A program made the position numbers and the translations under genes. From contig JAFGAX010000070.1 in assembly GCA_016933415.1 (NCBI GenBank), positions 1 through 48,459 on the forward strand: 48,459 bases of DNA. Direction: 5' to 3'. Position 1 is the first letter of the stretch, and each line of letters starts with the position of its first letter. Shown piece by piece: positions 2,901-25,881 of the stretch. The notes beneath the pieces are model-generated. The model was not told the DNA's origin. It worked only from the letters and a program-made list of their open reading frames with translations, and did no database searches. This DNA comes from a bacterium. Lineage in GTDB: Bacteria > Zhuqueibacterota > QNDG01 > DTFT01.

Positions 2901-3272
2901 ATGCCCGAATCCATGCTTTCCGTCGCGGACCGGGGCGGGGTGACCGTCGCCACGGTGAAATGCCGCAAGCTGTACCAGCAGGCCGTGCCGGCCTTTCGCG
3001 CGGAAATGCTCGGCCTTGTCGAACAGGGATGCCGGTCCATGCTGGTCGACCTCAGCGGCGTGGACGTGATGAACAGTTCCGCCCTGGGCGTCGTCATCCT
3101 GACCTACGACCGGGTGACCAAGGAAGGCGGACGCTTCGCCGTGGCCGGGCTGGGCGCCATTCTCAAGGAACTTTTCGAACGCATGCACCTGGGGGAGTTG
3201 TTTCCGCTGGCGGGGGATGTGGAGGAGGGAGTCGCGGCGCTGAACGGGCAAGAAAATATCCCTGCCCAATAG
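2901..3272 (+). CDS. STAS-domain anti-anti-sigma factor
   Basis: A 123-aa single-domain STAS protein of the SpoIIAA/RsbV type. The core VDLSGVDVMNSSALGVVIL carries the Ser pair that partner anti-sigma kinases phosphorylate, and the helix-strand order fits a complete domain. Proteins of this family bind and sequester a serine-kinase anti-sigma factor when unphosphorylated. The ATG at 2901 follows GGAAGAAG at 2891-2898 and gives a compact domain; reading further upstream would overlap comM. No RsbW-like kinase is visible in the window, so the partner must be elsewhere. A second STAS protein is at 11188. Confidence 0.85.
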   Translation: MPESMLSVADRGGVTVATVKCRKLYQQAVPAFRAEMLGLVEQGCRSMLVDLSGVDVMNSSALGVVILTYDRVTKEGGRFAVAGLGAILKELFERMHLGELFPLAGDVEEGVAALNGQENIPAQ

Positions 3273-3277
3273 CATGG

Positions 3278-3402
3278 CTATAAAGAACCGTGGGTCACAC
3301 GGTGGGTGCCCCCCTGACGTTTTTTACTTCCACTCGATGGAGGCCTGTAATACGCGTCCAGAGTCGGGCTCCCTGTCTCTCTGATTTGAAGGTTCTTTAT
3401 AG
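3278..3402 (+). ncRNA. Candidate structured RNA (6S-like architecture)
   Basis: A perfect 12-bp inverted repeat (ctataaagaacc, 3278-3289; ggttctttatag, 3391-3402) closes a 125-base segment without a credible gene. Inside, gggtgccc (from 3304) can pair with gggctccc (from 3365) with one mismatch, tgacg with cgtc further in, ttac with gtaa, and cttcca with tggagg around a short loop. A separate small hairpin ccgtg/cacgg (3288-3302) can form in the 5' half. One long rod with an unpaired central region is the architecture of 6S RNA, and CCCCTGA also resembles a 6S segment. It is shorter than typical 6S RNA (about 180 nt), and no terminator T-run follows. Strand is assumed. It may instead be the remnant of a mobile element end. 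Confidence 0.35.
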
Positions 3403-3534
3403 ATGTGGCTGCTACTGGAGCAGGGATCAACACTCCTGTTGCACGGCATCAATTTCCTGAAATTAATCGTGAATGTCAAGTGAAAACGGACGGGCCGGAA
3501 CAAACGGTTCCGTGTTTCGGAAAAGGAGGCGGAG

Positions 3535-4974: not shown

Positions 4975-5327
4975 GATGCAAAGCGCACAGGGCGACGCTC
5001 ATGACGCAAAGCGCACAGCGCAAAGCGTACAAGGCGAAGCGCGTGGCGGATAACAGGAGGAAGACGGGAACCCTCTAAAAGAATGTTCCCGTCTTTCTCT
5101 GGAATGGGTCGTGAACCAGTTCGGGAAGCCTGAAAACCGGACCCAGCCGCTTCCCGGAAAGCCATGGGATATGACGAAGGCAGACCAATCCAAATCATAT
5201 CATATTGATATTAATGCCGTTAATACGGTTTAAGTTTCAATTCTCCGCCTCTTTTCCGGTCGATTTTCATATACTTTTTTCAAAAAATTACGTACATTCA
5301 AACAGACGGGGGAATAGGAGCGTATCT
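4975..5327. other. Intergenic region with short repeats before nfeD
   Basis: 353 bp. Just after the GH30 stop, gcaaagcgcacag occurs twice (about 4978 and 5005), followed by degenerate copies of the same word (caaagcgtacaagg), probably a decayed tandem repeat. Then comes the terminator at 5061-5095. The last 130 bases are AT-rich and probably hold the nfeD promoter, but I cannot pick a convincing -35/-10 pair. Confidence 0.5.
5061..5097 (+). terminator. Hairpin terminator after the GH30 gene
   Basis: A perfect 11-bp stem (aagacgggaac, 5061-5071; gttcccgtctt, 5085-5095) with a 13-base loop. The T-run is weak (TCTTTCTCT). A closely similar hairpin follows the sigma-factor gene at 36381, so this is one of a repeated terminator family. 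Confidence 0.6.
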
Positions 5328-6632
5328 ATGAGATTATTAAAGCATTCTGAGGTCTTCAGGGGGTTCCTGACGGCTTTATTCCTGCTCGGCGCAACCGGGC
5401 TGGGAACCGCGAATACCGTGGAAGTTCTGAAAATCGAAGGCGCGATCACGCCCGTGACCGCAAAATACATAGATGAGGCCATCCGCCTGGCCGAAGACAA
5501 CCAGGCCGAGTGCCTGATCATCCAGATGGACACGCCGGGCGGTCTCATGGAAGCCACCTGGAAAATCGATAAATCCATTCTCGCCTCCCTGGTGCCCGTC
5601 ATCGTGTACATCTCTCCCAGCGGAGGCAGGGCCGCCTCAGCCGGTGTCTACATCTCATACGCCAGCCACCTCATCGCCATGGCGCCTTCCACGCATCTGG
5701 GATCCGCGCATCCGGTCGCCATGGGCGGGCAGGACTCCTCGAAGACCATGATGGAGAAGATCACCAACGACGCGGTGGCCCATATCAAGGGTCTGGCCGA
5801 GAAGCGGGGCCGGAACGGCCAATGGGCCGAGCAGGCGGTGCGCGAAAGCGTCTCCATCACCGAAACCGAGGCGGTCTCGAAGAAAGTCGCGGAACTCATC
5901 GCCAAGGACCTCGGCGATCTGCTGGACCAGCTGGACGGACGGACGATCAGGCTCGACAGCGGCGCAGAAAAGACGCTTCAGACAGCGGAGGCCCGGATCC
6001 GGCACTCCGCCATGGACTGGCGCTACCGAATCCTCGACAAGATATCCGATCCCAACATCGCCTATATCCTGATGATGCTCGGCATTTACGGCCTGTTTTT
6101 CGAACTGTCCAATCCGGGCGCCATTCTGCCCGGCGTGATCGGCGGCATTTTTCTGATCCTCGCGTTTTTCGCCCTGCAGGTGCTCACGGTGAATGCATCG
6201 GGTGTTCTGCTCATTCTTCTCGCCATTCTCTTTTTCATCATCGAAGTGAAGATCAACAGCCATGGATTGCTGGCGATTGGAGGAATTGTGGCCATGTTTC
6301 TGGGATCGCTCATGCTGTTCAAGTCCCCGGAAATGCGGGTTTCATTGAGCATCATTGTCACCGCCGTCCTCTGCTCGGCCCTGTTTTTCCTTTTCGCACT
6401 GGCGCTGGCGGCCCGGGCGCACCGGCTGAAAATCACCACCGGCGGAGAGGGTCTGGTCGGCGAGACCGGAACGGTCGTGGATGCCATACGCGGCGAGGGC
6501 AAGATTTCCGTGCACGGGGAAATCTGGGCGGCCCGCAGCGGAAAACCGGTCAAGAAAGGCGAAAAGGTGATCGTCCGGTCGGTCGACGGACTTATTCTGG
6601 AAGTGTCTCCGGTCGAGAGCCGGGGGAAGTGA
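5328..6632 (+). CDS. nfeD: NfeD-family membrane serine protease (long form)
   Basis: 434 aa. A signal/membrane segment ([14 protein letters not shown]) leads into a ClpP-like domain (about residues 30-240) with [11 protein letters not shown] and the protease core [14 protein letters not shown], whose second Ser is the family's nucleophile. Four or more membrane helices follow (about 250-365), then a C-terminal OB-fold NfeD domain (about 370-430: [21 protein letters not shown]). Long-form NfeD proteases cleave the C-terminal tail of their slipin partner; the slipin gene lies 109 bp downstream, matching the conserved pair. The ATG at 5328 was chosen because it starts the signal segment and AGGAG lies 8 bases before it; an in-frame start at 5205 lies in AT-rich leader and is unlikely. 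Confidence 0.9.
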
Positions 6633-6741: not shown

Positions 6742-7500
6742 ATGTCCACTTCATTGGTTGTTGTGCTCTTTTTCGTTTTCTTCCTTCTGGCCAACTCCAT
6801 CCGCATCCTGCGGGAATACGAGCGGGGCGTCATTTTCCGCCTGGGGCGTCTGATCAAGGCCAAGGGCCCGGGACTGATTCTCCTGATTCCGGTCGTCGAC
6901 AAGATGGTCAAGGTCAGCTTGCGCACCATTCCCATGGAAGTGCCCGCGCAGGATGTGATCTCGAAGGACAACATCTCCGTCAAGGTGAATGCCGTGGTGT
7001 ACTTCCGCGTGATCGACGCAAACAAGGCCGTCACCGACGTGCAGGACTACCTGTACGCCACATCCCAGCTCGCGCAGACAACGCTCCGGTCCACACTCGG
7101 CCAGTTCGAGCTCGACCAGCTTCTGTCGGAACGCGAGACCATCAATGAAAAGCTCCAGGACATACTCGACAAGCACACGGGGCCCTGGGGCATCAAGGTG
7201 GCCCTGGTGGAGGTCAAGAATATCGATCTTCCGGACGAGATGAAGCGGGCCATCGCGCGGCAGGCCGAGGCCGAGCGCGAACGCCGGGCCAAGGTCATTC
7301 ACGCGGACGGAGAATTCCAGGCGTCGCAGAAGCTGGCGGACGCGGCTCATATCCTCGGCAAGGAACCGACGTCCATGCAGCTTCGCTTCCTCCAGACCCT
7401 CGTGGAGATCGCGGCGGAGAACAATTCGACCACTTTGTTCCCGATTCCGATCGATCTGTTCAAGCCTTTCCTGGAAAAAGCGGTGGAATCGAAAAAATAA
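6742..7500 (+). CDS. Slipin (SPFH/stomatin-like membrane protein)
   Basis: 252 aa. An N-terminal hydrophobic anchor ([16 protein letters not shown]) is followed by the SPFH/band 7 domain ([21 protein letters not shown] through about residue 190). The helical C-terminal part ([18 protein letters not shown]) is the oligomerisation region typical of slipins. These proteins form ring-like membrane microdomain scaffolds. Pairing with NfeD immediately upstream is a classic conserved operon and supports the identification. The ATG follows GGGAGG with a good spacing. Its C-terminus ends in the hydrophobic [17 protein letters not shown]; such a segment is what the archaeal NfeD homologue cuts. Confidence 0.92.
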
Positions 7501-7624: not shown

Positions 7625-7987
7625 ATGGATAACCGAATCAAAACGGGCCTCTGGCCGCGGGTGAAATCGGCCGCGGGCTGGGGCCTCTTTCTGGGCATCT
7701 GCGACTATGTGGTGGCCTGGAGCATCACGAACGACATCACCGCATGGGCGGTGCGCGCCGTCGTGCTCGTCCAGACCCTCATGGGCGCTGCGATCGGAGC
7801 GGAGAAATGGTCCGCGTCCTGGTGGGTGAAAGGCCTCGTGTTCGGGCTCGGGTTCAATATCCCGCTGGCCGCGGGACTGGCCCTGCTCGGCGGGGGTTGG
7901 GGGAAAACCCTGGCCGTGTGGATCCCGATAACGGGCGCGGCCATCGGTCTGTTCACGGAATGGATCATGAACAGGAACAGGCCGTGA
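7625..7987 (+). CDS. Small four-helix membrane protein, unknown function
   Basis: 120 aa, almost entirely hydrophobic, with four probable membrane helices at about residues 18-35, 40-58, 66-89 and 92-113. The sequence is not one I recognise. Its stop overlaps the start of the FMN-binding protein gene (TGATG), so the two are translationally coupled. An integral membrane partner next to an exported flavoprotein would fit an electron-transfer role, but this is inference from position only. AAAGGGAAGC precedes the ATG. Confidence 0.7.
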   Translation: MDNRIKTGLWPRVKSAAGWGLFLGICDYVVAWSITNDITAWAVRAVVLVQTLMGAAIGAEKWSASWWVKGLVFGLGFNIPLAAGLALLGGGWGKTLAVWIPITGAAIGLFTEWIMNRNRP

Positions 7988-8391
7988 TGAGAATCCTTAA
8001 AACAGCGGCGCTAAGCTTCTGTCTTGTGACGGCCGTGAACCTGCGGACCGTCGGGTCCGTCAAAGCAGTCACCGGCACCGGCGCGGTCCCGGCCGCGTCC
8101 AGCCTGAACCTCAGGGACGGGATATACAAGGCCGAGAGCCCGGGCTGGACCGGCATGGCTGTGGCCGTGCATGTCGAAGACGGCAGGCTGGCCTGCGTCG
8201 AGGTCCTGAAGGCAAAGGGCACACCCCGGTATTATAACCGCGTCGTGCGTCGCCTGCCCGTTCTGATGAAGGAAAAGGGATCCCCTGAAGTCGACGGCAT
8301 CACCGGAGCCACGCTGTCCTGCAACAGTCTGAAGGAGGCGGTGCGGGCCGCGCTGAATCAGGCCCGGCCCGACACCCTGCCGTCCCGGTAG
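7987..8391 (+). CDS. Exported FMN-binding domain protein
   Basis: 134 aa: a signal peptide (about residues 1-27) and a single FMN_bind domain. The conserved DGITGATLSCNSLKEAV near the end contains the [S/T]GAT motif whose Thr receives covalently bound FMN in NqrC, RnfG and related proteins. The modification is made by ApbE flavin transferase, encoded in this window at 12781. The short single-domain form resembles proteins used in extracytoplasmic flavin electron-transfer chains. Coupled by a 1-base overlap to the membrane protein upstream; AmmeMemoRadiSam genes follow. Confidence 0.85.
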   Translation: MRILKTAALSFCLVTAVNLRTVGSVKAVTGTGAVPAASSLNLRDGIYKAESPGWTGMAVAVHVEDGRLACVEVLKAKGTPRYYNRVVRRLPVLMKEKGSPEVDGITGATLSCNSLKEAVRAALNQARPDTLPSR

Positions 8392-8459
8392 GTTCCCGTG
8401 CGTTCCCGAATTCAAATTCCCCGGGCGGTGTACGCCGCGCGGGAAAAAGGGCGGCGCGG

Positions 8460-9575
8460 TTGAAGACCGCGTTTACCCGGAGACGTTTCCTCGCGGCCGC
8501 AGCCGCAGCCGCGGCAGGCGGCCTGACCAGCCCGGCCGGCCGCCTCTGCGGCGCGGAACGGCCGGCCGGCAGAGAGGCCCGTCATTACCGCAGGCTCGCG
8601 GGAAACAAGGTTCAATGCGGCCTGTGCCCCTGGGAATGCCTGGTGGACGACGGAAAGCGGGGTAAATGCGGCGTGCGGGAGAACCGCGGCGGCCGCTTCT
8701 ACAGCTTGGTCTATGGACGGGTAGCGGCGTCTCACGTGGACCCGATCGAGAAGAAGCCGTTCTACCATCTGCTCCCGGGCAGTCCCGCTTACTCCATGGC
8801 AACGGTGGGGTGCAATTTTGACTGCCGGTTCTGCCAGAACTGGGATCTGGCCCGGAGGCGTCCGGAGGAAGCCCCTGTCCCCGAGCTTTCCGCCGAATCC
8901 GTCGCGGAAGCGGCGGCTCGCGCCCGATGCCCGGTGATCGCCTTCACGTATTCCGAGCCCACGGTATTCAACGAGTTTGCGTTCGACACGGCCGCGGCGG
9001 GCCGGCGTCTGGGCATCCGGAGCGTGGTGGTTTCGAACGGATTCATCCGCAGGGAACCGCTCGAGGACCTGTGCGGCGTGATCGACGGGTATAAAGTCGA
9101 TTTGAAGTCCATGGACGACAGATACTACCGGTCCGTGTGCAGCGGCCGGCTGGCGCCGGTGCTCGAGACTTTGGTCCGGCTGCGTGACCGGAAAGTGTGG
9201 TGCGAAATCGTCTATCTCGTGGTTCCCACGCTCAACGATTCCGACGCCGGTTTCCGAATGCTTTCGCAATGGGTGCTGAAAGAGATGGGGCCGGACGTAC
9301 CGGTCCATTTTTCCCGTTTCTATCCGCAGTACAAACTAAACAACCTGCCGCCGACGCCCGCGGCCACGCTTGAGCGCGCCTGGTCCATCAGCCGCGAGGC
9401 GGGGCTGCATTTCGTCTATCTCGGCAATCTGCCGGGACACGAGGCGGAGAACACATTCTGTCCCGGATGCCACAAGGCCGTCATTCTCCGCTCCGGCTTC
9501 TCCGTGAAGGAAACGCATCTTCGCGACGGACGGTGCGGTTTCTGCGGACGCGTCATACCGGGCGTCTGGGCCTGA
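8460..9575 (+). CDS. amrS: AmmeMemoRadiSam system radical SAM enzyme with Tat signal
   Basis: 371 aa. Cys-rich N-terminal segment C53-x2-C56-x3-C60-x9-C70, radical SAM motif CNFDCRFC (C118, C122, C125), a standard SAM-binding barrel, and a C-terminal zinc-ribbon-like part (CPGC...CGFC). This is the AmrS family, whose reaction is unknown; it always occurs with AMMECR1 and Memo homologues, which here follow 19 bp downstream as a fusion. The N-terminus MKTAFTRRRFLAAAAAAAAG is a good twin-arginine signal, so the folded iron-sulfur protein is predicted to be exported. The start is TTG at 8460; its ribosome site is weak, but the Tat motif fixes the frame and approximate start. Confidence 0.88.
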   Translation: MKTAFTRRRFLAAAAAAAAGGLTSPAGRLCGAERPAGREARHYRRLAGNKVQCGLCPWECLVDDGKRGKCGVRENRGGRFYSLVYGRVAASHVDPIEKKPFYHLLPGSPAYSMATVGCNFDCRFCQNWDLARRRPEEAPVPELSAESVAEAAARARCPVIAFTYSEPTVFNEFAFDTAAAGRRLGIRSVVVSNGFIRREPLEDLCGVIDGYKVDLKSMDDRYYRSVCSGRLAPVLETLVRLRDRKVWCEIVYLVVPTLNDSDAGFRMLSQWVLKEMGPDVPVHFSRFYPQYKLNNLPPTPAATLERAWSISREAGLHFVYLGNLPGHEAENTFCPGCHKAVILRSGFSVKETHLRDGRCGFCGRVIPGVWA

Positions 9576-9594
9576 CCGAAAGGAGGGTCGCGCC

Positions 9595-11115
9595 ATGAAA
9601 CGCAGCGGATGGACCGTTGCCTTTCTGGTTCTCGGATTCTGCCTGTCGTTCTGCCACCAGCGGCAGACGGTTGCGGCCCGGGTGAGGCCCGCGGCCCGGG
9701 CGGGCCAGTTCTACGCCTATTCCGCGACCGAACTCCGCGAGCAGGTCCGGCTCTGCATGTCCAAAGCCGGGGGCGCGGTCCTGAAAGGGGAGATCCGGGG
9801 GATCTGGGCGCCGCACGCGGGCTATGAATACAGCGGCGCGATCGCGGCCGCGGCCTATCGGCAGGTGGCCGGCCGGTCCTACGACGCCGTGCTGGTGGTC
9901 GGACCCAGCCATTACCGGGCGTTTCGGGGCGCGGCCGTGGCCGACTGGGATTCCCTCGCCACGCCTCTCGGCCGTATCGCCGTAGACCGCGGCCTGGTCC
10001 GCGCGCTCACGGCCGCGGATCCGTGGATCACGGTGGTTCCCGGCGTAGACGACGGAGAGCATTCCGTCGAAGTCCAGCTCCCGTTCATCCAGGACGCCCT
10101 TCCGGGAGTGCCGGTCGTGCTGATGCTCACGGGGGACATGCCGCATGACCAGGCTGACAGGATCGCCCGGGCCATTGCCGGGGCCTGCGCCGGCCGGCGG
10201 GTGCTGCTGGTCGCCAGTTCGGATATGTCGCATTTTCCGTCCGCCTCGGACGCACGCCGCTCGGACGCGGAAGTGCTTGCGGCCGTTTCGAAATACGACA
10301 CGAAACGGATTCTGGCGCTCGAGGCCGGGTCGCGGACCCGGGGAATCCGGAATCTGGACTGCGCGCTGTGCGGTTCGGGCGCCCTGGTCACTGTCATGCT
10401 GGCGGCCCGCGCCATGGGCGCGGACCGCGCGGTTCAGCTGGCCTATGCCCATTCGGGGGATGTCACCGGCGACCCGGAGCGGGTGGTCGGGTACGGGGCG
10501 GCAGCCTTTGTCGGTCCGGTCGGTTCACTCAGCAAAGGAGGCGGCAACGTGGAACCGGAATCGCTCAAATTCACAGAGAGTGAGAAAAAAACGCTGTTCC
10601 GTGCGGCGCGTCAGGGCATTCTCGCCGCGCTGGGCGGACAGCGGCCCCCGGAATTCAACATCGAGTCGCCGAATCTGCTCGTCAAGCGCGGCGTGTTCGT
10701 GACCCTGGAGAACCGGGGCCGGTTGCGGGGGTGCATCGGGCATTTCGAGCCCGACCTGCCCCTGTTCGAAATCGTGTCCCAAATGGCCGTCGCGGCCGCA
10801 ACCCAGGATTACCGGTTTGCCCACAACCCGGTCACGGAACGCGAGATGAAGGATATCCACATCAAGATTTCCATCCTGTCCCCGCTCAAGAAGATCGATT
10901 CCGTCGAGGAAATCGAAGTCGGCAGGCACGGCATCTGGGTCCGGCAGGGCATGCGGAGCGGCACCTATCTGCCCGAGGTGGCGGCGGACATGGGCTGGAC
11001 GCGGGAGCAGTTCCTGGAAAGCTGCTGCGCCGAGAAAGCCGGCCTCCCGCCCGACGCCTGGAAGAAGGGCGCGGACATTTACGTTTACACCTCGCAAGTC
11101 CTTCAGGAAAAATGA
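9595..11115 (+). CDS. amrB: AmmeMemoRadiSam B-A fusion (Memo plus AMMECR1)
   Basis: 506 aa. Residues about 27-300 form a Memo-like domain (RPAARAGQFY..., WAPHAGYEYSGAIAAAAY, VGPSHYRAFRG, SSDMSHF), related to extradiol dioxygenases. Residues about 325-500 form the AMMECR1 domain (LVKRGVFVTLENRGRLRGCIG, ISILSPLKKID). The two are separate genes in many genomes and fused in others. The N-terminus is a Sec-type signal (VAFLVLGFCLSFCHQ); the LSFC could be a poor lipobox. Together with the Tat signal on the preceding radical SAM enzyme, this suggests the whole module works outside the cytoplasm. AAAGGAGGG precedes the ATG. Confidence 0.9.
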   Translation: MKRSGWTVAFLVLGFCLSFCHQRQTVAARVRPAARAGQFYAYSATELREQVRLCMSKAGGAVLKGEIRGIWAPHAGYEYSGAIAAAAYRQVAGRSYDAVLVVGPSHYRAFRGAAVADWDSLATPLGRIAVDRGLVRALTAADPWITVVPGVDDGEHSVEVQLPFIQDALPGVPVVLMLTGDMPHDQADRIARAIAGACAGRRVLLVASSDMSHFPSASDARRSDAEVLAAVSKYDTKRILALEAGSRTRGIRNLDCALCGSGALVTVMLAARAMGADRAVQLAYAHSGDVTGDPERVVGYGAAAFVGPVGSLSKGGGNVEPESLKFTESEKKTLFRAARQGILAALGGQRPPEFNIESPNLLVKRGVFVTLENRGRLRGCIGHFEPDLPLFEIVSQMAVAAATQDYRFAHNPVTEREMKDIHIKISILSPLKKIDSVEEIEVGRHGIWVRQGMRSGTYLPEVAADMGWTREQFLESCCAEKAGLPPDAWKKGADIYVYTSQVLQEK

Positions 11116-11123
11116 GAAAACCC

Positions 11124-11152
11124 TTGTAATTTCAGGTGAAAAAGGCTACATT
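11124..11152 (+). promoter_or_regulatory. Promoter of the second STAS gene
   Basis: TTGTAA at 11124-11129, a 17-bp spacer and TACATT at 11147-11152, placed in a short AT-richer gap, with the start codon 36 bases downstream. It would give the STAS gene its own transcript separate from the AmmeMemoRadiSam genes. Confidence 0.5.
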
Positions 11153-11187
11153 TCCCGGATAATGGACCATGCGCATCGGAGGCATGC

Positions 11188-11532
11188 ATGAAAGTGGACG
11201 TGAAAGAACAGGGCACTGCGGCGGTCCTTCTCGTCAAGGGAAACCTGATGGGGGGTCCCGAGACGCTGGCGGTTCATGAAAAGGTCCGCGAGCTGGTCGG
11301 CCTGAAGAAAACGAATGTGGTGATCGATCTGTCCGGCGTGGCCTGGATCAACAGTTCGGGCCTGGGCATGCTCATGGGATGCCTCACGTCGATCCGGAAC
11401 GCGGGCGGGGAGATGCGGGTCACGGGCGTGACGGAGAAGGTCAAGAATCTGTTCGTGATCACCAAACTCATCACGTTATTCGAAACCTATGAAACGGTCG
11501 ACGAGGCGGTCGCCTCTTTCGGTTCGAAATAA
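11188..11532 (+). CDS. STAS-domain anti-anti-sigma factor
   Basis: 114 aa, a complete SpoIIAA-like STAS domain: VVIDLSGVAWINSSGLGMLM carries the regulatory Ser pair, followed by TSIRNAGGEMRVTGVTEKV. Such proteins counteract a serine-kinase anti-sigma factor. CGGAGG sits just before the ATG. It has its own promoter and a strong terminator (11559-11585), so it is a single-gene unit. It is unlike the STAS protein at 2901 outside the core motif, so the two probably serve different partners. Confidence 0.88.
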   Translation: MKVDVKEQGTAAVLLVKGNLMGGPETLAVHEKVRELVGLKKTNVVIDLSGVAWINSSGLGMLMGCLTSIRNAGGEMRVTGVTEKVKNLFVITKLITLFETYETVDEAVASFGSK

Positions 11533-11558
11533 ACGGGTTTCCGGCATTTCCGGCGGTC

Positions 11559-11588
11559 AACGGGCGGGGAATGGACCCGCCCGTTTTC
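11559..11588 (+). terminator. Terminator after the STAS gene
   Basis: A perfect 10-bp GC-rich stem (aacgggcggg, 11559-11568; cccgcccgtt, 11576-11585) followed by TT and a short T-rich end. It separates the STAS gene from the prenyl synthase and argues that the latter's start is downstream of 11590. Confidence 0.65.
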
Positions 11589-11707
11589 ATAGGGCCGGTT
11601 CGCGCGGCAGGTTCGGACCGGACAGCCGGGGCGGGCGGACCCGCAGCGGGGCGGACATCCGAATTCCTGCGGTTGCGTCCGCCTGCGGACGAGGCTTGAG
11701 CGCGGCC

Positions 11708-12781
11708 ATGCTCCGGAACGCCTCGGCTCCGGTCGCTTCCGCGCTGGAGCGGTTCGAAACGGAATTCATCGCGTCGCTCGATGCCGCGGAGAGCGCCGGC
11801 CATCCGGCCCTGAAGGCATCCCGCCTGCTTTCCGGCAAGCGGCTTCGGCCACTGCTCCATCTGCTCGCGCAGGGCGCCGCGGATCCCGAACGGCCGCCGG
11901 AACCCGGCGCCGCGGTTCTCATCGAACTCCTGCATATCGCGAGCCTCCTCCATGATGATGTGGTGGACGGCACAGACAGGCGGCGCGGGTTGAAAAGCCT
12001 GAACGCGGCCGAAGGCAACCGGTTCTCCGTGCTGTCCGGCGACTACCTCATGGCAAAAGCGCTTTCCCTGGCGCTCGGCTTTCCCGATCCCATCGTCACG
12101 CCTGCCCTGTCCCGCGCCCTGCTCGTCATGACCGCCGCGGAGTTGAAGCAGGCGCTGTCCGGCGGCGCCGCGGTGGTGTCCGAATCGGAGGTGCTTGAGA
12201 TCGCCTACGGCAAGACCGCGTGCCTGATGGAGACGGCCTGCGAACTCGGAGGCCGTCTGGCCGGAGCGGACGAAGGCCGGGTCCGGGCGCTGGGCCGGTT
12301 CGGCCGCCATTTCGGCCTTGCCTATCAGATCCGGGACGACATTCAGGACGTCACGGGAGACTCGAAGACACTCGGCAAACCGGTCGGACAGGACGCCAGC
12401 GGCGGGAGATGGACGCTCCCCCTGGTCTACAGCCTGGAGGCATCCGGCGCCGCGGACCGTAAAGCGTGCATGCGCCGCATGGCAAGAAGGACCGCGGCGG
12501 ACGTCGCGTGGATTCACGCGTTCATCCTGCGTCACGGCGGCGCGGAGGCGGCTGAACGGAAAGTGGACGCGGAGCTCGGTGAAGGGGTCCGGCAGCTGTC
12601 CGGTTTCCCGGAATCCGACTGCCGTTCCGGTCTGATTCTGCTTTGCGGCCGGCCGGCCTTCGGCAGGACCGGAACCGCCCCCGGTCAGGAGAAGGATGCG
12701 CCGGAGCAACTGCCGGATCCGGAGCGAAATTCGGCACACACCGGCTTCGGCACGCTCCGGTGTGCCGGGGAAGGCCTTTGA
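11708..12781 (+). CDS. Polyprenyl diphosphate synthase
   Basis: 357 aa. Both aspartate-rich substrate motifs of trans-prenyl synthases are present: DDVVD at 83-87 (HDDVVDGTDRRRG) and DDIQD at 210-214. KRLRP near residue 44 and the KT of AYGKTACL near 165 are also conserved. The enzyme extends allylic diphosphates with isopentenyl diphosphate, making the side chain of a quinone or an undecaprenyl-like lipid. The last 40 residues extend past the usual family end and are rich in Gly, Pro and Glu. The start is uncertain: the ATG at 11708 is preceded by GAGG at a long distance, and a TTG lies at 11696. Its stop overlaps the apbE start (TGATG), so the two are coupled. Confidence 0.85.
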   Translation: MLRNASAPVASALERFETEFIASLDAAESAGHPALKASRLLSGKRLRPLLHLLAQGAADPERPPEPGAAVLIELLHIASLLHDDVVDGTDRRRGLKSLNAAEGNRFSVLSGDYLMAKALSLALGFPDPIVTPALSRALLVMTAAELKQALSGGAAVVSESEVLEIAYGKTACLMETACELGGRLAGADEGRVRALGRFGRHFGLAYQIRDDIQDVTGDSKTLGKPVGQDASGGRWTLPLVYSLEASGAADRKACMRRMARRTAADVAWIHAFILRHGGAEAAERKVDAELGEGVRQLSGFPESDCRSGLILLCGRPAFGRTGTAPGQEKDAPEQLPDPERNSAHTGFGTLRCAGEGL

Positions 12782-13890
12782 TGATTGCATCGACTCAGCG
12801 GCGTCACGTCGCGCTTGTCATCCTATCCGTCCTGCTGGCCTGCCTGTCGGCATGCCGGAGGAGCCGCCTCGCTTCTCCGGTGATTGCCGAGGCTTTTCTG
12901 GTCGACACCCACGTTAAAATTTCGGTTTTCGACGCCGATTCAGGCGAAACGGGCGCCCGGGCGGCTGTTCAGAAATGCATCCGTGAAATGCGCGCGGCAG
13001 AGGGCCGCACCACGGCGCATGTGGACACCAGCGACATCGCACGCGTCAATGCCGCTGCCGGCAGGCGGCCGGTGGCGGTCGGCCCGGAAACCCGCGGCCT
13101 GATTGAAAAGGCCGTTGAAGCGTCGCGTCTGACCCGCGGCGGATACGACGCCGTTCTGGGCGGGCTCAAAATTCTCTGGGGATTCGGAACCGACCGGACG
13201 GCGGTCCCGGACAAGGCCGAGTTGAACCGACGTCTCCGGGTCTCCGGAATGCGCCAGCTCGAGCTCGGGGACGGAACCGTTTTTCTGAAGAACAGCGGCG
13301 CGTCCATGGATCTCGGCGGGCTCGGAGAGGGATACCTGATCGACCTGGCCGTGCGGTCCCTGCGCGGCAGCGGTGTCCGTTCCGGTATCGTGGAGGCCAC
13401 GGGCGATCTCGCGGCTTTCGGCCGGCATCCGGAGCGTCCGTACTGGCGCATCGGCGTCAAGAATCCGCGCGACCCGGAAGGCCGCCTCATGGGGGTGATC
13501 CGGCTGGGGGGGGAGGCGGTCTCAGAGGGTCGTTTTGTGACGACCCTTCAACGTCTCTTCGGGGTGATCCGCCTGAAGGATGAGGCCGTGGCCACATCGG
13601 GCGATTATGAAAGGGTTTTCATCGAGAATGGAAAACGCTACTGCCACATCATCGATCCACGGACCGGTTTCCCGGCCGCGTCCGGGTGCATCAGCGTGAC
13701 CGTGGTGGCTCCGGCCGCATTGGATGCCGACGCGCTGGCCACGGGTCTGTTCACGCTCCATCCGGATACGGCCCTGGCGGTGATCGAGAGCCTGCCGCAT
13801 GTCGAGGGCATTGTCATGACCGAGGCCGACGGCGTCGTTCGCCAGAAGGTTTCCTCGGGTTTGAAGAACCGGTACGACGCGGCGGAATAG
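12781..13890 (+). CDS. apbE: FAD:protein FMN transferase, lipoprotein
   Basis: 369 aa. The lipoprotein signal ends in LACLSAC, placing the enzyme on the periplasmic side of a membrane. ApbE motifs follow: DTHVKISVF, NSGASMDLGGLGEGYLID, AVATSGDYERVF and HIIDPRTGFPA with later DADALATGLF. The enzyme transfers FMN from FAD to a Thr in [S/T]GAT motifs, such as the one in the FMN-binding protein at 7987. It overlaps the prenyl synthase by one base. An insertion of 23 aa (from 13492) interrupts the usual GVIRLKDEAVATSG by repeating GVIRL; it carries a small DNA hairpin. The insertion lies in a loop before the conserved motif, so activity may survive. Confidence 0.93.
   Translation: MIASTQRRHVALVILSVLLACLSACRRSRLASPVIAEAFLVDTHVKISVFDADSGETGARAAVQKCIREMRAAEGRTTAHVDTSDIARVNAAAGRRPVAVGPETRGLIEKAVEASRLTRGGYDAVLGGLKILWGFGTDRTAVPDKAELNRRLRVSGMRQLELGDGTVFLKNSGASMDLGGLGEGYLIDLAVRSLRGSGVRSGIVEATGDLAAFGRHPERPYWRIGVKNPRDPEGRLMGVIRLGGEAVSEGRFVTTLQRLFGVIRLKDEAVATSGDYERVFIENGKRYCHIIDPRTGFPAASGCISVTVVAPAALDADALATGLFTLHPDTALAVIESLPHVEGIVMTEADGVVRQKVSSGLKNRYDAAE
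13492..13560. repeat. In-frame 69-bp insertion/duplication inside apbE
   Basis: The words ggggtgatccg-ctg occur at 13492 and 13561, 69 bases apart, so the reading frame is kept. Between them is a perfect 8-bp hairpin (agggtcgt, 13526-13533; acgaccct, 13540-13547; loop tttgtg). The encoded residues (EAVSEGRFVTTLQRLF) have no counterpart in the ApbE family as I know it. Confidence 0.55.
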
Positions 13891-13989
13891 TTCCGGGTTC
13901 CGCGTTCCGGGTTTAAACAGAAGAACAGATGGAATTATCTTTCAACCCGGAACCCGGAACTCGGAACCCGGAACCCGGAACCCGGAACG
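13891..13989. repeat. GGAACCC-rich inverted repeat
   Basis: The left arm (13891-13913) is built of ttccgggttc units; the right arm (13944-13989) repeats cggaaccc five times. The arms are complementary over more than 15 bp. It lies between apbE and the UXS-like gene and could terminate transcription. A second member of the family is at 23777-23858. Confidence 0.6.
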
Positions 13990-14061
13990 CTTTCTTAACC
14001 ATGAACCATGAACTTTTCAAGATGAACCGATTCGTCGATTGATCAGAAAAGAAGGAAGCAC

Positions 14062-15018
14062 ATGCCAAGAACTCTCGTCACGGGCGGCGCTGGATTTCTC
14101 GGGTCGCATCTCTGCGAGGCCCTGCTCCGCCGCGGGCACGAAGTCATCGCCATGGACAATCTGCTCACCGGCTCGGTGGACAACATCAGTCACATCCGGA
14201 GCGACCGCTTCTCGTTTATACGCTACGACGTCACGAATTACGTGTACGTGGACGGACCGCTGGACTATATCCTGCATTTCGCGTCCCCGGCCAGCCCGCG
14301 CGATTATCTCGAGTTTCCCATCCAGACGCTGAAGGTCGGCTCGCTGGGAACGCACAAGGCGCTCGGTCTCGCACGGGAGAAGAAAGCCGTTTTTCTGCTC
14401 GCCTCCACCTCCGAGGTGTACGGCGATCCGCTCGTCCATCCCCAGCCGGAAACCTACTGGGGCAACGTCGATCCGGTCAGCCCCAGGGGCGTGTACGACG
14501 AGGCCAAGCGGTTCGCGGAGGCGATCACCATGGCCTATCACCGTTCCCACGGCGTGGACACCCGCATCGTCCGCATCTTCAACACCTACGGTCCGCGCAT
14601 GCGGCCCGAGGACGGCCGGGCGGTGCCCGCTTTCGTCCCGCAGGCCCTGCGGGGAGAGCCGATCACGGTTTTCGGGGACGGGAGCCAGACCCGGAGCTTC
14701 TGCTACGTGACGGACCTGGTCGACGGCATTCTGCGCCTGCTGGAGTCCGGCATACACACGCCGGTGAACATCGGCAACCCGGACGAGCGGACCATACTGG
14801 AACTGGTCCACGCCATTCTCGAGATTACCGGCAGCGACAGCGCCGTCGTCCACAGGCCTCTGCCGGTGAACGACCCCAAGGTCCGACAGCCCGACATCAC
14901 ACTGGCTCGGATCCGTCTGGAATGGGAGCCGAAAGTCAGCCTGGAGGATGGATTGAAAACCACCATCGACTGGTTCCGCCGCAAGCTGGGTATGTCCGAT
15001 GCCGGCTCCCGGGCGTGA
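14062..15018 (+). CDS. NAD-dependent UDP-glucuronate decarboxylase-like epimerase
   Basis: 318 aa, extended SDR family. The NAD-binding motif [15 protein letters not shown] is at the N-terminus, the catalytic Ser/Thr region is [10 protein letters not shown], and YDEAK is the YxxxK pair. The phrases [50 protein letters not shown] and [17 protein letters not shown] are characteristic of UDP-xylose synthase (UXS), which converts UDP-glucuronate to UDP-xylose. The product could supply xylose or a related sugar to the LPS genes downstream: its 3' end overlaps the GT9 gene by 20 bases. AAGGAAG precedes the ATG. Confidence 0.87.
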
Positions 15019-16060
15019 AGTAAGGCCTGTGCCCGAGCCGCGAAATGTGCTCCTGATCCGCTTCGGCGCGATGGGTGATGTGATTCTCGCAACGCCCGCC
15101 ATCCGGGCCGCGGCCGCGGCCTGCGGGGCCGGGCGGATCGATTTTCTCACCAAGTCGGCATATCGGCCCCTGGTGCGGAACCACCCGTCCATGGGCCGCG
15201 TGCTGAAGTTCGGGGGCAGGGACGGAGCGGGGTTTTGGAGTATGGTTCGGACCGTGCGTGCCGGCCGATACGACGCGGTGATCGATCTGCAGAACAGCTG
15301 GCGCAGCCGTTTCCTGAGTCTGTTCTCCGGCGCAGAAACGCGGGGCACGGTGAAAATCGGCCGCTGGAAGCGGTTTCTGCTGGTACGTTGCCGCCGCGAC
15401 CGGTACGGGGATGTCCTGCCTGTGCCGTTGAAATACCTGGCCGCGGCATCCGTGATCGGCGCCCGGGATGACGGGAAGGGGCTGGATCTGGCCGTGGATC
15501 CGGAAGAGTCGGAGGCCGCTGCCGGCCTGCTGAAATCGGCCGGGCTCGCAACGGGCAGGCCGCTTATCGCGCTGGCGCCCGGCGCCGGTCGCGCCACCAA
15601 ACGCTGGCCGGCGGAGCGTTTCGGCGCAGTCGCCTCAGCTTTCATTGCAAGGGGATACGCCGCGGCTTTCATCGGGGGGGAGGCGGATAAACCGGCCTGC
15701 GCCGAAGCCCTGAAAAGCGCGGGCGGACCCTCGGCGGATCTGGCCGGTGTTTTCTCCCTGGCCGGAACAGCCGGCCTGATCAGCCGGTCCAGACTGCTGG
15801 TCACCAATGACACCGGGCTCATGCACATGGCCACGGCTCTGCGGGTGCCCTGCGTCGCGGTCTTCGGCCCGACGACGCGCCATTTCGGCTTCTTCCCGTT
15901 CCGCGCGGCCTCCGCCGTGGTCGAGAAGCCGCTCGCGTGCAGACCCTGCTCCTACCACGGCACGGACCGGTGTCCGCAGGGGCATTTCCGCTGTATGCTG
16001 GACATCGAGGCCGGGGAGGTGCTGTCCGCGGCCGAACGGTTACTGATTCCGGAGAACTGA
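14999..16060 (+). CDS. GT9 (heptosyltransferase-like) glycosyltransferase
   Basis: 353 aa. The fold and motifs are those of glycosyltransferase family 9 (WaaC/WaaF/WaaQ): [23 protein letters not shown] at the N-terminus, [20 protein letters not shown] at the start of the second domain, and [29 protein letters not shown] near the nucleotide-sugar site. It adds heptose or another sugar to the LPS inner core on the cytoplasmic face of the inner membrane. It overlaps the UXS-like gene by 20 bases and waaA by one base, showing tight coupling. A GTG at 15030 is an alternative start. Confidence 0.88.
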
Positions 16061-17361
16061 TGGATTCCTTCTATTACGCGGTGTATAACGCGGCCGTTCT
16101 GCCGCTGCTCAGGTTCGCGCTGTTCCTGGGCGCGCTGGTCGATCCCAAAATCCGGCGTGGGCTGAAGGGCCGCAGCGGGCTTTTCAGCCGCCTCGAATCG
16201 GAAACCGCCGGATGCGCCGGCCGTTCCCCGCGTTTCTGGATACACACCAGTTCCATGGGAGAGTTCGAGCAGGCCAAGCCCGTCATCGCCGGACTGCGGG
16301 CCCGGTTTCCCGACGCCTTCATCGCGGTCAGTTTTTTCTCTCCCTCCGGGTACGAGAATGTCCGGTCTTTTCCCGGCGCCGACCTCCTGACCTACATCCC
16401 ATTCGACACCAGGCGGAACGCCGGCCGTTTCCTCTCCATCCTCAGGCCCGACGCCGGAATCGTGGTGCGTCACGACATCTGGCCGAACCACACCGCCGAG
16501 CTCAAGCGGCGGGGCATTCCCGCGTTTCTGATCAACTTCTCGCTCCGTTCCGCGCCGGCGTACCGCAGGTTCTGGACCCGGGGCATGATTCGCATGTGCG
16601 TCCGGCCCTTTGACCATGTGCTCGCGGTTTCGGAACAGACCGCGGACGTGAGCGAAAAATTCAGCCTCTCATCGGTCCGGCCCGAGGTGGCGGGGGACAC
16701 GCGCTACGACCAGGTCGTGCGGCGGACGGAAAACGCAGAGGCCGCGGCCGGGCCCCTGCGGCCTTTGAAACAGGGGCGTTTCGGCATCGTGTTCGGCAGC
16801 ACCTGGCCCACGGACGAGGCCGTGATCACGCCCGTTCTGAAGGCGCTTGCCGTGGAGCATCGCAGGCTGTGGTCGGTTTGGGTTCCGCACGAGCCCACGG
16901 CGGAGCACCTGCAGAACGTCGAATCGCAATGCGCCGGCGCGGGACTTCGGTGTGTCCGGCTTTCGGGTCTTCCGGATGCGCGCGGCGGCGCTTTCGATGT
17001 GCTCCTGGTGGACCGCATCGGCATTCTCGCGGGCCTGTACGCACTGGCGGACGCCGCCTTTGTCGGCGGCGGATTCGGGCCCGGCGTGCACAGCGTGCTC
17101 GAACCCGCGGCTTTCGGAATCCCGGTTTTCTTCGGACCCCGGTGCAGGAATTCCCACGAGGCCGGTCAGCTTGAATCGCGCGGCGGCGGATTTCTCGTCC
17201 GGGACGCTGATTCCTTTCTCCGCGTCCTCCGGCCCATGGTCAACGACTCCGCTGTTCTCAAGAAGGCGGGCGCGTCCGCGCTGGCCCTGGTGCGCGAGAA
17301 TATCGGGGCCACGGACCGCATCGTGCGCCGCCTCGAGGAACGGGTGAAGCCGCGTGCTTGA
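16060..17361 (+). CDS. waaA: 3-deoxy-D-manno-octulosonic acid (Kdo) transferase
   Basis: 433 aa, normal family length. An N-terminal membrane anchor (VLPLLRFALFLGALV) leads to the GT-B fold with WIHTSSMGEFEQAKPVI (the SxGE catalytic region), VVRHDIWPNH, VAGDTRYDQV, FGSTWPTDEAVI and GGFGPGVHSVLEPAAFGIPVFFGP. It transfers Kdo from CMP-Kdo to lipid A precursor, so the cell makes LPS. The ATG overlaps the GT9 stop (ACTGATGG). The 3' end overlaps the start of the first ECF ATPase by 8 bases. Confidence 0.93.
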   Translation: MDSFYYAVYNAAVLPLLRFALFLGALVDPKIRRGLKGRSGLFSRLESETAGCAGRSPRFWIHTSSMGEFEQAKPVIAGLRARFPDAFIAVSFFSPSGYENVRSFPGADLLTYIPFDTRRNAGRFLSILRPDAGIVVRHDIWPNHTAELKRRGIPAFLINFSLRSAPAYRRFWTRGMIRMCVRPFDHVLAVSEQTADVSEKFSLSSVRPEVAGDTRYDQVVRRTENAEAAAGPLRPLKQGRFGIVFGSTWPTDEAVITPVLKALAVEHRRLWSVWVPHEPTAEHLQNVESQCAGAGLRCVRLSGLPDARGGAFDVLLVDRIGILAGLYALADAAFVGGGFGPGVHSVLEPAAFGIPVFFGPRCRNSHEAGQLESRGGGFLVRDADSFLRVLRPMVNDSAVLKKAGASALALVRENIGATDRIVRRLEERVKPRA

Positions 17362-18121
17362 AGTCGAAGGTCTGCAGGCCGTCTACCCCGGAGCCGAATC
17401 CGCACCCGCGCTCCGGGGTGTTTCGTTCCGGATCGCGCCGGGCGAGCGGGTGGCGCTCATGGGATCGAACGGATCCGGCAAGACGACCCTGGTCCGGTGC
17501 ATCGACGGCCTGCTCCGTCCGTCGGCCGGGGACGTCCGGGTCGACGGGTTTTCCGTGCTCCGGCCCGGAGACCTGATGCCCCTGCGCAGGCGCATCGGCC
17601 TGGTTTTTCAGAACCCGGACGATCAGATCGTATCCACCACGGTGGAGCGCGAGATCGCATTCGGTCCCGAAAATCTCGGTGTTCCCACGGAGCAAATCGT
17701 CCGCCGCGTGGACGAGGCGCTCAGGCGGTTCAGGCTCGAACCGGTCCGGTCGCATGCGCCGCATCTGCTTTCAGGAGGCGAGCGCCAGCGGCTCGCGCTG
17801 GCGTCGGTCTGGGTCATGGAACCCGCGTATTACGTTCTGGACGAACCCACTTCGCTTCTCGATCCGGAAGGCCGCGCGGAAATCCGGCGTTTCGTGACGG
17901 AGCGGCCGGATGCGGGATTCCTCATCGTCACCCAGTATCCGGACGAGGCCCTGTTCTGCGGCCGTCTTCTCCTGCTCCGGGAAGGGGCGCTCGTGTTCGA
18001 CGGGCCGGCCGAGACCGCGTTCCGGGACGCTGAATTGTGCCGGGCGGCCGCGGTGGGCGTTCCCGCATCGATCCGTCTCGAGGTTTTCCGGGAGGGCCTG
18101 CGCTCTGAACATCCGGCTTGA
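17354..18121 (+). CDS. ecfA1: ECF transporter ATPase A (EcfA1-type)
   Basis: 255 aa ABC ATPase. Walker A GSNGSGKTT at 37-45, Q-loop in FQNPDDQIVSTTVEREIAFGPENLG (85-109), signature LSGGE at 139-143 and Walker B VLDEP at 161-165. The FQNPDDQ Q-loop is typical of energy-coupling-factor A subunits, which drive uptake (or, in some loci, handling) of vitamins and flavins. The start is GTG at 17354, overlapping waaA by 8 bases. The A' partner follows with a 17-base overlap. No T or S component is visible in the window. Confidence 0.85.
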   Translation: MLEVEGLQAVYPGAESAPALRGVSFRIAPGERVALMGSNGSGKTTLVRCIDGLLRPSAGDVRVDGFSVLRPGDLMPLRRRIGLVFQNPDDQIVSTTVEREIAFGPENLGVPTEQIVRRVDEALRRFRLEPVRSHAPHLLSGGERQRLALASVWVMEPAYYVLDEPTSLLDPEGRAEIRRFVTERPDAGFLIVTQYPDEALFCGRLLLLREGALVFDGPAETAFRDAELCRAAAVGVPASIRLEVFREGLRSEHPA

Positions 18122-18965
18122 ACATCTATCCTATTCATACCGTTCCCCGTTTTTCGAAACCCGGAACGCGCTGCACGATGTATCCGCGATCTTCGGACCG
18201 GGCGAATGCGTCGCGCTCGTGGGCCCGTCCGGATCCGGTAAAACCACGCTCATTCAACACCTGAACGGCCTCCTCCGGCCGACGTCCGGCGCCGTCCTGC
18301 TGGACGGTTTGGACCTGGCGGACCGGAGGACCGACCTGAACGAGGTGCGGCGGAGGATCGGCCTGGTCTTTCAACTGCCCGAGACGCAGCTTTTCGAGGA
18401 GACGGTTTTCGCGGACGTGGCTTTCGGTCCGAAGAACCTCGGCCTTTGCGGCAGCCGATTGGAGTCGGCCGTGGCCGCGGCCATGGAGCGCGTGGGTCTG
18501 TCCTTCGATGCGTATCGGAACCGTTCGCCTTTCCATCTCAGCGGCGGTGAGAAGCGGCGTGCGGCGCTGGCCGGCGTGTTCGCCATGGAGCCCGAGTGGA
18601 TCGTTCTCGACGAGCCCACGGCCGGCCTGGACTGGGAATCGTCCATCCGCGTGGAATCCATCCTGTCCGGATTTCACGGCACGGGCCGCTCGGTTCTGTT
18701 CATCTCGCATGACATGGATCTGGTGGCCCGTCTCGCGGAAAGGGTGATTCTGCTCGAAAAGGGACGCGTGCAATACGACGGGCCGGTGAGGCCGTTCTTT
18801 CTTTCCGATCAGCCGCAACGGGCCGGGCTCGGCAGGCCGTCGGTTACGGCCGCGATGGAATCGTTCAAAAGCCGGGGCATTCCGGTTCGGACCGACGTGC
18901 TCACGATGGAGGAGGCGGAAGCGGAATTGCGGCGCGCGGCTGGACTTGGAGCGATTCAAGACTGA
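18105..18965 (+). CDS. ecfA2: ECF transporter ATPase A' (EcfA2-type), probable CTG start
   Basis: 286 aa. Walker A GPSGSGKTT at 40-48 and a Q-loop reading FQLPETQLFEETVFADVAFGPKNLG, which is the diagnostic A' form. LSGGEKRR is near 145 and Walker B IVLDEP near 166. It pairs with the ATPase just upstream to make the A:A' heterodimer. No ATG, GTG or TTG lies near the right position. A CTG at 18105, 8 bases after GGGAGGG (18090-18096), gives the canonical start MNIRLEHLSYSY, so CTG is the best choice. EcfT does not follow; the next 230 bases are non-coding. Confidence 0.8.
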   Translation: MNIRLEHLSYSYRSPFFETRNALHDVSAIFGPGECVALVGPSGSGKTTLIQHLNGLLRPTSGAVLLDGLDLADRRTDLNEVRRRIGLVFQLPETQLFEETVFADVAFGPKNLGLCGSRLESAVAAAMERVGLSFDAYRNRSPFHLSGGEKRRAALAGVFAMEPEWIVLDEPTAGLDWESSIRVESILSGFHGTGRSVLFISHDMDLVARLAERVILLEKGRVQYDGPVRPFFLSDQPQRAGLGRPSVTAAMESFKSRGIPVRTDVLTMEEAEAELRRAAGLGAIQD

Positions 18966-19447: not shown

Positions 19448-19523
19448 GCGGGAATAGCTCAGTTGGTAGAGCGTCACGTTGCCAACGTGAATGTCGCGGG
19501 TTCAAGTCCCGTTTCCCGCTCCA
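19448..19523 (+). tRNA. tRNA-Gly (GCC)
   Basis: 76 bases. The acceptor GCGGGAA pairs with TTCCCGC, the anticodon loop gttGCCaac reads GCC, the T loop is GGTTCAAGTCC, and CCA is encoded at the 3' end (19521-19523). Confidence 0.95.
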
Positions 19524-19526
19524 ACT

Positions 19527-19602
19527 GGCGGCGTAGCCAAGTGGCTAAGGCGAAGGTCTGCAAAACCTTTATTCAGCGGTTCGACTCCGCTCGCCGCCTC
19601 CA
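19527..19602 (+). tRNA. tRNA-Cys (GCA)
   Basis: 76 bases, 3 bases after tRNA-Gly. The acceptor GGCGGCG pairs with CGCCGCC, the anticodon in tctGCAaaa is GCA, and CCA is encoded at 19600-19602. Confidence 0.95.
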
Positions 19603-19610
19603 AAGGACCG

Positions 19611-19696
19611 GCCGGGATGGCGGAATAGGTAGACGCAAGGGATTTAAAATCCCTTGTCCCGTAAGGGGCGTGCCGGTTCGATTCCGGCTCCCGGTA
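19611..19696 (+). tRNA. tRNA-Leu (TAA)
   Basis: 86 bases with a long variable arm (tgtcccgtaaggggcg region). The acceptor GCCGGGA pairs with TCCCGGT with one G-T pair, and the anticodon in atTTAAaat is TAA. Unlike the two preceding tRNAs, CCA is not encoded (the gene is followed by CTG). Confidence 0.93.
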
Positions 19697-19724
19697 CTGC
19701 ATCCGCGGCGGCCTGGAGTTTCCG

Positions 19725-25680: not shown

Positions 25681-25755
25681 GGTGGGTATAGCTCAGTTGG
25701 TTAGAGCGTCAGGTTGTGGCCCTGAAGGTCACGGGTTCGAGTCCCGTTACTCACC
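25681..25755 (+). tRNA. tRNA-His (GTG)
   Basis: 75 bases including the extra 5' G typical of tRNA-His: GGTGGGTA pairs with TACTCACC over 8 bp with one G-T pair. The anticodon in gttGTGgcc is GTG and the T loop is GGTTCGAGTCC. CCA is not encoded (followed by CAA). Confidence 0.93.
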
Positions 25756-25804
25756 CAAACGGCCGGACTTTTCAGGGTCGTGTTTGACAACCTCGGAAAC
25801 ACTT

Positions 25805-25877
25805 GTCCCCATCGTCTAGAGGCCTAGGACTCAAGATTTTCGATCTTGTAACTGGGGTTCGAATCCCCATGGGGACG
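25805..25877 (+). tRNA. tRNA-Glu (TTC)
   Basis: 73 bases. The acceptor GTCCCCA pairs with TGGGGAC, the anticodon in attTTCgat is TTC, and the T loop is GGTTCGAATCC. CCA is not encoded. Its 3' end and the terminator behind it are duplicated twice downstream (31.2 and 35.2 kb). Confidence 0.94.
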
Positions 25878-25881
25878 CTTT

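Follow-up and report, generated by a model that had tools for sequence, protein, structure and literature searches.

Described systems closest to the locus

Flavin-based extracellular electron transfer (EET) is described from Listeria, where the locus includes PplA, FmnB (ApbE), FmnA and EetB, and where EetB, FmnA, EcfA and EcfA' export FAD for use by ApbE (PMC9973259). ApbE also serves the flavinylated subunits of Rnf and Nqr complexes, and DUF2271 proteins are a demonstrated class of ApbE substrate (PMC8238504). The membrane cytochromes associated with flavinylation (DUF4405, MsrQ and PepSY) rely on conserved histidines (PMC11334425). AmmeMemoRadiSam (TIGR04335, TIGR04336 and TIGR04337) is a three-component system of AMMECR1, Memo and the radical-SAM enzyme AmrS; Memo-Ammecr1 systems are mentioned in PMC7159879.

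The window analysed here is a 48,459-nucleotide stretch of a 2.70-Mb draft genome (G000), which is 76% complete and forms genus g1 together with a sister genome (G010). The comparison set comprises 81 other genomes of the phylum. The neighbourhood comparison covers 80 loci around AmrS genes, taken from 43 genomes of the phylum, and the order-level synteny map covers 12 genomes including G000, with the window genes projected as far as the contigs reach. As the genomes are fragmented and incomplete, gene absences are soft. Tat and Sec signals were called by motif, and the N-terminal hydrophobic signal of the FMN_bind protein was assigned by inspection.

An earlier note on this DNA had likened it to Listeria-type flavin EET loci and suggested that it may be a new variant of an extracytoplasmic flavin redox chain. 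The genes it named within 11 kb, interleaved with AmmeMemoRadiSam and LPS genes, are all present and intact, with small changes of coordinates, and their named domains score above the Pfam cut-offs. In common with Listeria (PMC9973259), there are an ApbE lipoprotein, an FMN_bind protein, a prenyl synthase and ECF ATPases in the window, as well as an EetB-family gene elsewhere in G000. By contrast with Listeria, the FMN_bind protein of the window has a single domain and can be missing from the block instead of being a constant member, the EetB-like and EcfT genes are unlinked to ApbE so that only EcfA and EcfA' are local, and the remainder of the block consists of LPS and housekeeping genes. 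Comparison with the 81 other genomes does not support a dedicated Listeria-type locus. The 11 kb is better explained, with a probability of roughly 0.7, as part of an order-conserved envelope block that includes a general ApbE and an exported AmmeMemoRadiSam paralogue, and not as a purpose-built electron-export locus. This reading draws on direct observation of which genes are present, of their synteny, of signal motifs and conserved catalytic motifs, and of a cytosolic paralogue encoded separately.

A conserved envelope gene block

The block has the order NfeD, slipin, TM4, (GNAT-like), (FMN_bind or nitroreductase), AmrS, Memo-AMMECR1, STAS, polyprenyl synthase, ApbE, UDP-sugar enzyme, heptosyltransferase, KdtA, EcfA and EcfA'. 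This order recurs across the taxonomic order (12 genomes from six families) wherever contigs reach, with a few members missing in some genomes. The block genes given with coordinates here and below are all on the + strand of the window. The upstream end is formed by an NfeD/SppA-type membrane serine protease (5205..6632), recognised by a weak TIGR00706 match and by synteny in all relatives reaching it, and by a slipin of the SPFH/Band 7 type (6742..7500; PF01145, 131 bits; synteny). Beyond the AmmeMemoRadiSam genes lie a STAS anti-sigma-factor-antagonist-like protein (11188..11532; PF01740, with TIGR00377 above its cut-off) and a polyprenyl diphosphate synthase (about 11708..12781, start chosen by inspection; PF00348, 170 bits), which reaches no chain-length equivalog model. 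The LPS-type genes that follow ApbE encode an NAD-dependent epimerase/dehydratase of the UDP-glucuronate decarboxylase type (14062..15018; PF01370 and PF16363), a heptosyltransferase-like GT9 protein (14999..16060; PF01075) and a KdtA/WaaA Kdo transferase (16060..17361; PF04413). Synteny supports each of these five assignments. Outside the block, a 6S RNA match at window positions 3255-3429 (- strand) scores 46.5 bits, just above the Rfam gathering score of 46.4, and the downstream region carries tRNA-Gly, tRNA-Cys and tRNA-Leu (19448-19697) and tRNA-His and tRNA-Glu (25682-25878).

FMN_bind is a variable member of this block. It adjoins TM4 or the GNAT-like gene in five of the 12 genomes (G000, G010, G011, G012 and G014); in the other seven (G008, G009, G013, G015, G016, G017 and G018), TM4 and AmrS lie on one contig and FMN_bind is absent from the interval between them. 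Because the block order is inherited across the order and FMN_bind is variable, the co-location of genes in the window is read as inherited synteny, and as an electron-export locus the arrangement therefore matters little. The co-occurrence across relatives that the earlier note proposed as a check holds for ApbE and EcfA/EcfA', which remain only a few kb apart order-wide, but breaks down for FMN_bind.

A predicted exported AmmeMemoRadiSam system

Radical-SAM enzymes are generally assumed to act in the cytoplasm, which provides SAM and low-potential reductants. The AmrS of the window (8460..9575, TTG start; TIGR04337, 359.5 bits against a cut-off of 220) begins with MKTAFTRRRFLAAAAAAAAGG, a Tat-type signal by motif. 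The next gene (9595..11115) encodes a Memo-AMMECR1 fusion that scores above the cut-offs of TIGR04336 (232 bits) and TIGR04335 (168 bits) and has a lipoprotein-like N-terminal signal (LGFCLSFC); Sec or lipoprotein N-termini are likewise found, by motif, on the Memo-AMMECR1 proteins of relatives. These export signals of AmrS and Memo-AMMECR1 went unmentioned in the earlier note. The window system resembles AmmeMemoRadiSam in that AmrS, Memo and AMMECR1 are all above family cut-offs and together in one operon. It differs in the Tat signal of AmrS, in the fusion of Memo and AMMECR1 behind a Sec/lipoprotein signal, and in its coexistence, among relatives, with an AmrS and a Memo that are cytosolic and encoded separately: a shorter, signal-less AmrS occurs at a separate site in most order genomes, and all order genomes but G000, which is incomplete, have at least two Memo genes (a long fusion and a short form). 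TatC is found in 12 of 12 order genomes.

In a midpoint-rooted tree of 83 AmrS sequences, the 36 with a Tat motif all fall into one clade, the node of which has weak local support (0.42). The non-Tat members of this clade are two sequences with contig-truncated N-termini and one sequence from Bacteroidia. The exported class is also distinguished from the other AmrS class by 13 alignment positions. The CxxxCxxC motif and the N-terminal four and C-terminal four cysteines are invariant in 38 of the 38 exported-clade sequences compared; thus, the exported form looks catalytically intact. AmrS and Memo-AMMECR1 appear to represent a phylum-wide exported paralogue of a separate cytosolic paralogue, with localisation predicted by motif only. 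In such a system, AmrS would acquire its fold and its Fe-S clusters in the cytoplasm before leaving by Tat, and Memo-AMMECR1 would leave by Sec or as a lipoprotein. A literature search, mostly without subscription papers, found no paper that connects Tat export or flavinylation with radical-SAM AmmeMemo proteins.

The surroundings of exported AmrS vary among families. In family f6, a nitroreductase-family gene fills the pre-AmrS slot of FMN_bind (L055:6285-6944 and L056:6278-6967), and in families f7-f9 (L058, L060 and L064) an RseC-type membrane protein follows AmrS (PF04246 tested in L058). In other families, a DUF362-type protein with its own Tat-like signal is encoded beside exported AmrS operons (L078, L080, L083, L085, L088, L094, L098, L100, L103, L106, L108 and L110; PF04015 tested in L078). 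A Prolixibacteraceae locus (L004) encodes an AmrS with a KR-type signal.

ApbE, its putative clients and flavin supply

The ApbE of the block is a lipoprotein of the FAD:protein FMN transferase family (12781..13890; PF02424, 242 bits), and its gene overlaps that of the polyprenyl synthase by one base. It is the single ApbE match in the 76%-complete G000 genome and has a dN/dS of 0.17 between G000 and G010. Four relatives (G008, G014, G016 and G018) have no ApbE other than that of the block, and FMN_bind proteins and Rnf/Nqr membrane subunits (PF03116/PF02508) are encoded on other contigs of theirs. Since the sole copy lies in the block and such clients lie elsewhere, this ApbE is best read as the general extracytoplasmic flavin transferase of the genome. 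Rnf/Nqr subunits encoded elsewhere are among its apparent clients in relatives, which comes close to the finding that the earlier note had named as contrary to its own proposal (partners that clearly belong to Nqr or Rnf elsewhere). Another likely substrate is a signal-bearing TPR-DUF2271 protein encoded directly upstream of etfB, with a DGITGAS motif in G000 (C68, L155:740-2275) and a TGAS motif in G018 (C148, L157:43-1677). DUF3570 is absent from the order.

The FMN_bind protein (7987..8391; PF04205, 42.6 bits against a cut-off of 22) is a single-domain protein of 134 amino acids with an N-terminal export signal, and is single-copy by profile match in the 76%-complete G000. Its candidate site for covalent FMN, DGITGATLS (VDGITGATLS), fits the pattern D-x-x-[ST]-G-A-[TS], and the GATLS motif is invariant across six FMN_bind sequences from four families. 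The domain is 92% identical between G000 and G010, with a dN/dS of 0.10. These features make the FMN_bind domain a plausible exported substrate for flavinylation by ApbE. The protein shares its substrate motif family with the flavinylated subunits of Rnf and Nqr (PMC8238504), which the block ApbE appears to serve in relatives, but it is short, scores only 18.3 and 16.8 bits against the curated RnfG and NqrC models (cut-offs 102 and 144), and is encoded outside the rnf operon, which in G000 is on contig C92. It may be a small FMN carrier outside the cytoplasm, one of several substrates that ApbE has in the lineage, and in some genera its gene adjoins TM4 or the GNAT-like gene. The possibility that it is the sole ApbE substrate of G000 is rejected in view of the TPR-DUF2271 protein with its TGAS motif.

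TM4 (7625..7987) is an order-specific membrane protein of 120 amino acids that belongs to no known family. The AlphaFold model has four helices (mean pLDDT 85.5); TM4 has no match in Pfam or NCBIfam and no confident match among PDB folds, and no His or Cys is invariant among 10 aligned homologues. The TGA of its gene overlaps the ATG of FMN_bind in both G000 and G010, and this translational coupling in genus g1 hints at a joint role. Similarly to the DUF4405, MsrQ and PepSY cytochromes (PMC11334425), TM4 is small, multi-helical, membrane-bound and encoded beside a flavinylation substrate. It differs from them in having no conserved histidines and in being retained where the substrate is missing; thus, TM4 is not a protein of that kind. 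The earlier note had taken TM4 as the membrane partner of FMN_bind, a pairing at odds with its occurrence in all 12 order genomes whether FMN_bind is present or not. With neither conserved ligands nor a fold match, TM4 is rejected as an electron-transfer partner.

The last two genes of the block encode an EcfA-type ATPase (17354..18121; best match TIGR04520, 236 bits, below the curated equivalog cut-off of 315) and an EcfA'-type ATPase (18105..18965; best match TIGR04521, 294 bits, below the curated equivalog cut-off of 330), both also supported by synteny. An EcfT gene, which the earlier note suggested looking for elsewhere in the genome, is present on contig C124, beside a truA-like gene, and is accompanied by an EetB-family S-component gene on contig C53, next to a NusG-II-like gene. 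With these genes in G000, an exporter of the Listeria type (PMC9973259) could be assembled, and it is plausible by analogy that an ECF system supplies ApbE with flavin: FAD could be delivered by a transporter of EcfT, the EetB-like S-component and the EcfA/EcfA' of the block, the genes being unlinked and the ATPases shared. No flavin riboswitch is found at the gathering threshold in the window or near ecfT. Both flavinylation and the supply of flavin through an ECF transporter are likely components of the biology of the block.

Alternative explanations

The gene set invites a reading as a new Gram-negative flavin electron-transfer chain, in which FAD would be exported by EcfA/EcfA', FMN_bind would be flavinylated by ApbE, and electrons would pass from a quinol with a locally made prenyl chain to TM4 and then to the FMN_bind protein. 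All of the parts lie within 11 kb, ApbE, the synthase and the ECF ATPases stay together across the order, the genome has an EetB-family gene, and the TM4 and FMN_bind genes overlap. Such a chain is nonetheless unlikely, as seven of the 12 genomes are missing FMN_bind from the block and retain all else, TM4 has neither a conserved His nor a conserved Cys that could bind heme or Fe-S, and no fold match, and ApbE has other clients. Of the extracytoplasmic flavin chain put forward in the earlier note, what survives is a plausible exported ApbE substrate, the order-wide proximity of ApbE and EcfA/EcfA' and a plausible ECF flavin exporter; the chain as a whole gives way to envelope-gene synteny with a variable FMN_bind. 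A related proposal draws on the Rnf of genus g1. In G000 (contig C92, L136:9400-12600), the Rnf operon consists of RnfC and RnfD followed directly by TatC, and the same reduced arrangement with TatC following is found in G010 (C70 and C99; L138 and L137); in relatives, the rnf operon is complete and has TatC as its last gene. Neither g1 genome has RnfA or RnfE, and no RnfG lies between RnfD and TatC. The reduced Rnf could make the local FMN_bind more important here than in relatives, and FMN_bind might even replace RnfG, giving a minimal NADH-to-periplasm flavin chain. The missing subunits, the purifying selection on the remaining RnfD (dN/dS 0.20) and the finding of no other FMN_bind protein in either g1 genome are consistent with this replacement. 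It is judged very improbable given that the RnfD flavinylation motif is altered (LTAASP compared to ITGATP), that relatives whose Rnf is intact also encode members of this small FMN_bind subfamily, and that both g1 genomes are incomplete.

FMN_bind may alternatively give electrons to the adjacent exported AmrS, which would reduce SAM or another ligand outside the cytoplasm and modify an envelope molecule together with Memo-AMMECR1. The gene order invites this speculation: in G000, G012 and G014, FMN_bind immediately precedes Tat-AmrS in the same orientation, and the contig of G010 ends just after FMN_bind. An exported Fe-S enzyme also requires an extracytoplasmic reductant, and other redox genes occupy the slot elsewhere (the nitroreductase of f6) or follow AmrS (RseC in f7-f9). 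The proposal is quite doubtful and unlikely to hold in general, because FMN_bind is missing from the surroundings of most exported AmrS loci; in G011, moreover, FMN_bind lies with TM4 and the GNAT-like gene on a contig that carries no AmrS. We know of no extracytoplasmic source of SAM. The fuller version, a complete AmmeMemoRadiSam outside the cytoplasm that modifies an envelope molecule with an AmrS reduced, in some genera, by a covalently flavinylated FMN_bind protein, is just as doubtful.

Significance of a predicted exported radical-SAM system

The conserved envelope block thus remains the preferred reading, and the exported radical-SAM system is its unusual part and a better lead than electron export. 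A Tat-exported AmrS that is phylum-wide and looks catalytically intact would raise the question of how SAM, electrons and substrate are provided beyond the cell membrane. In humans, Memo and AMMECR1 are disease-related proteins of unclear primary function, and the bacterial operon offers a route to that function.
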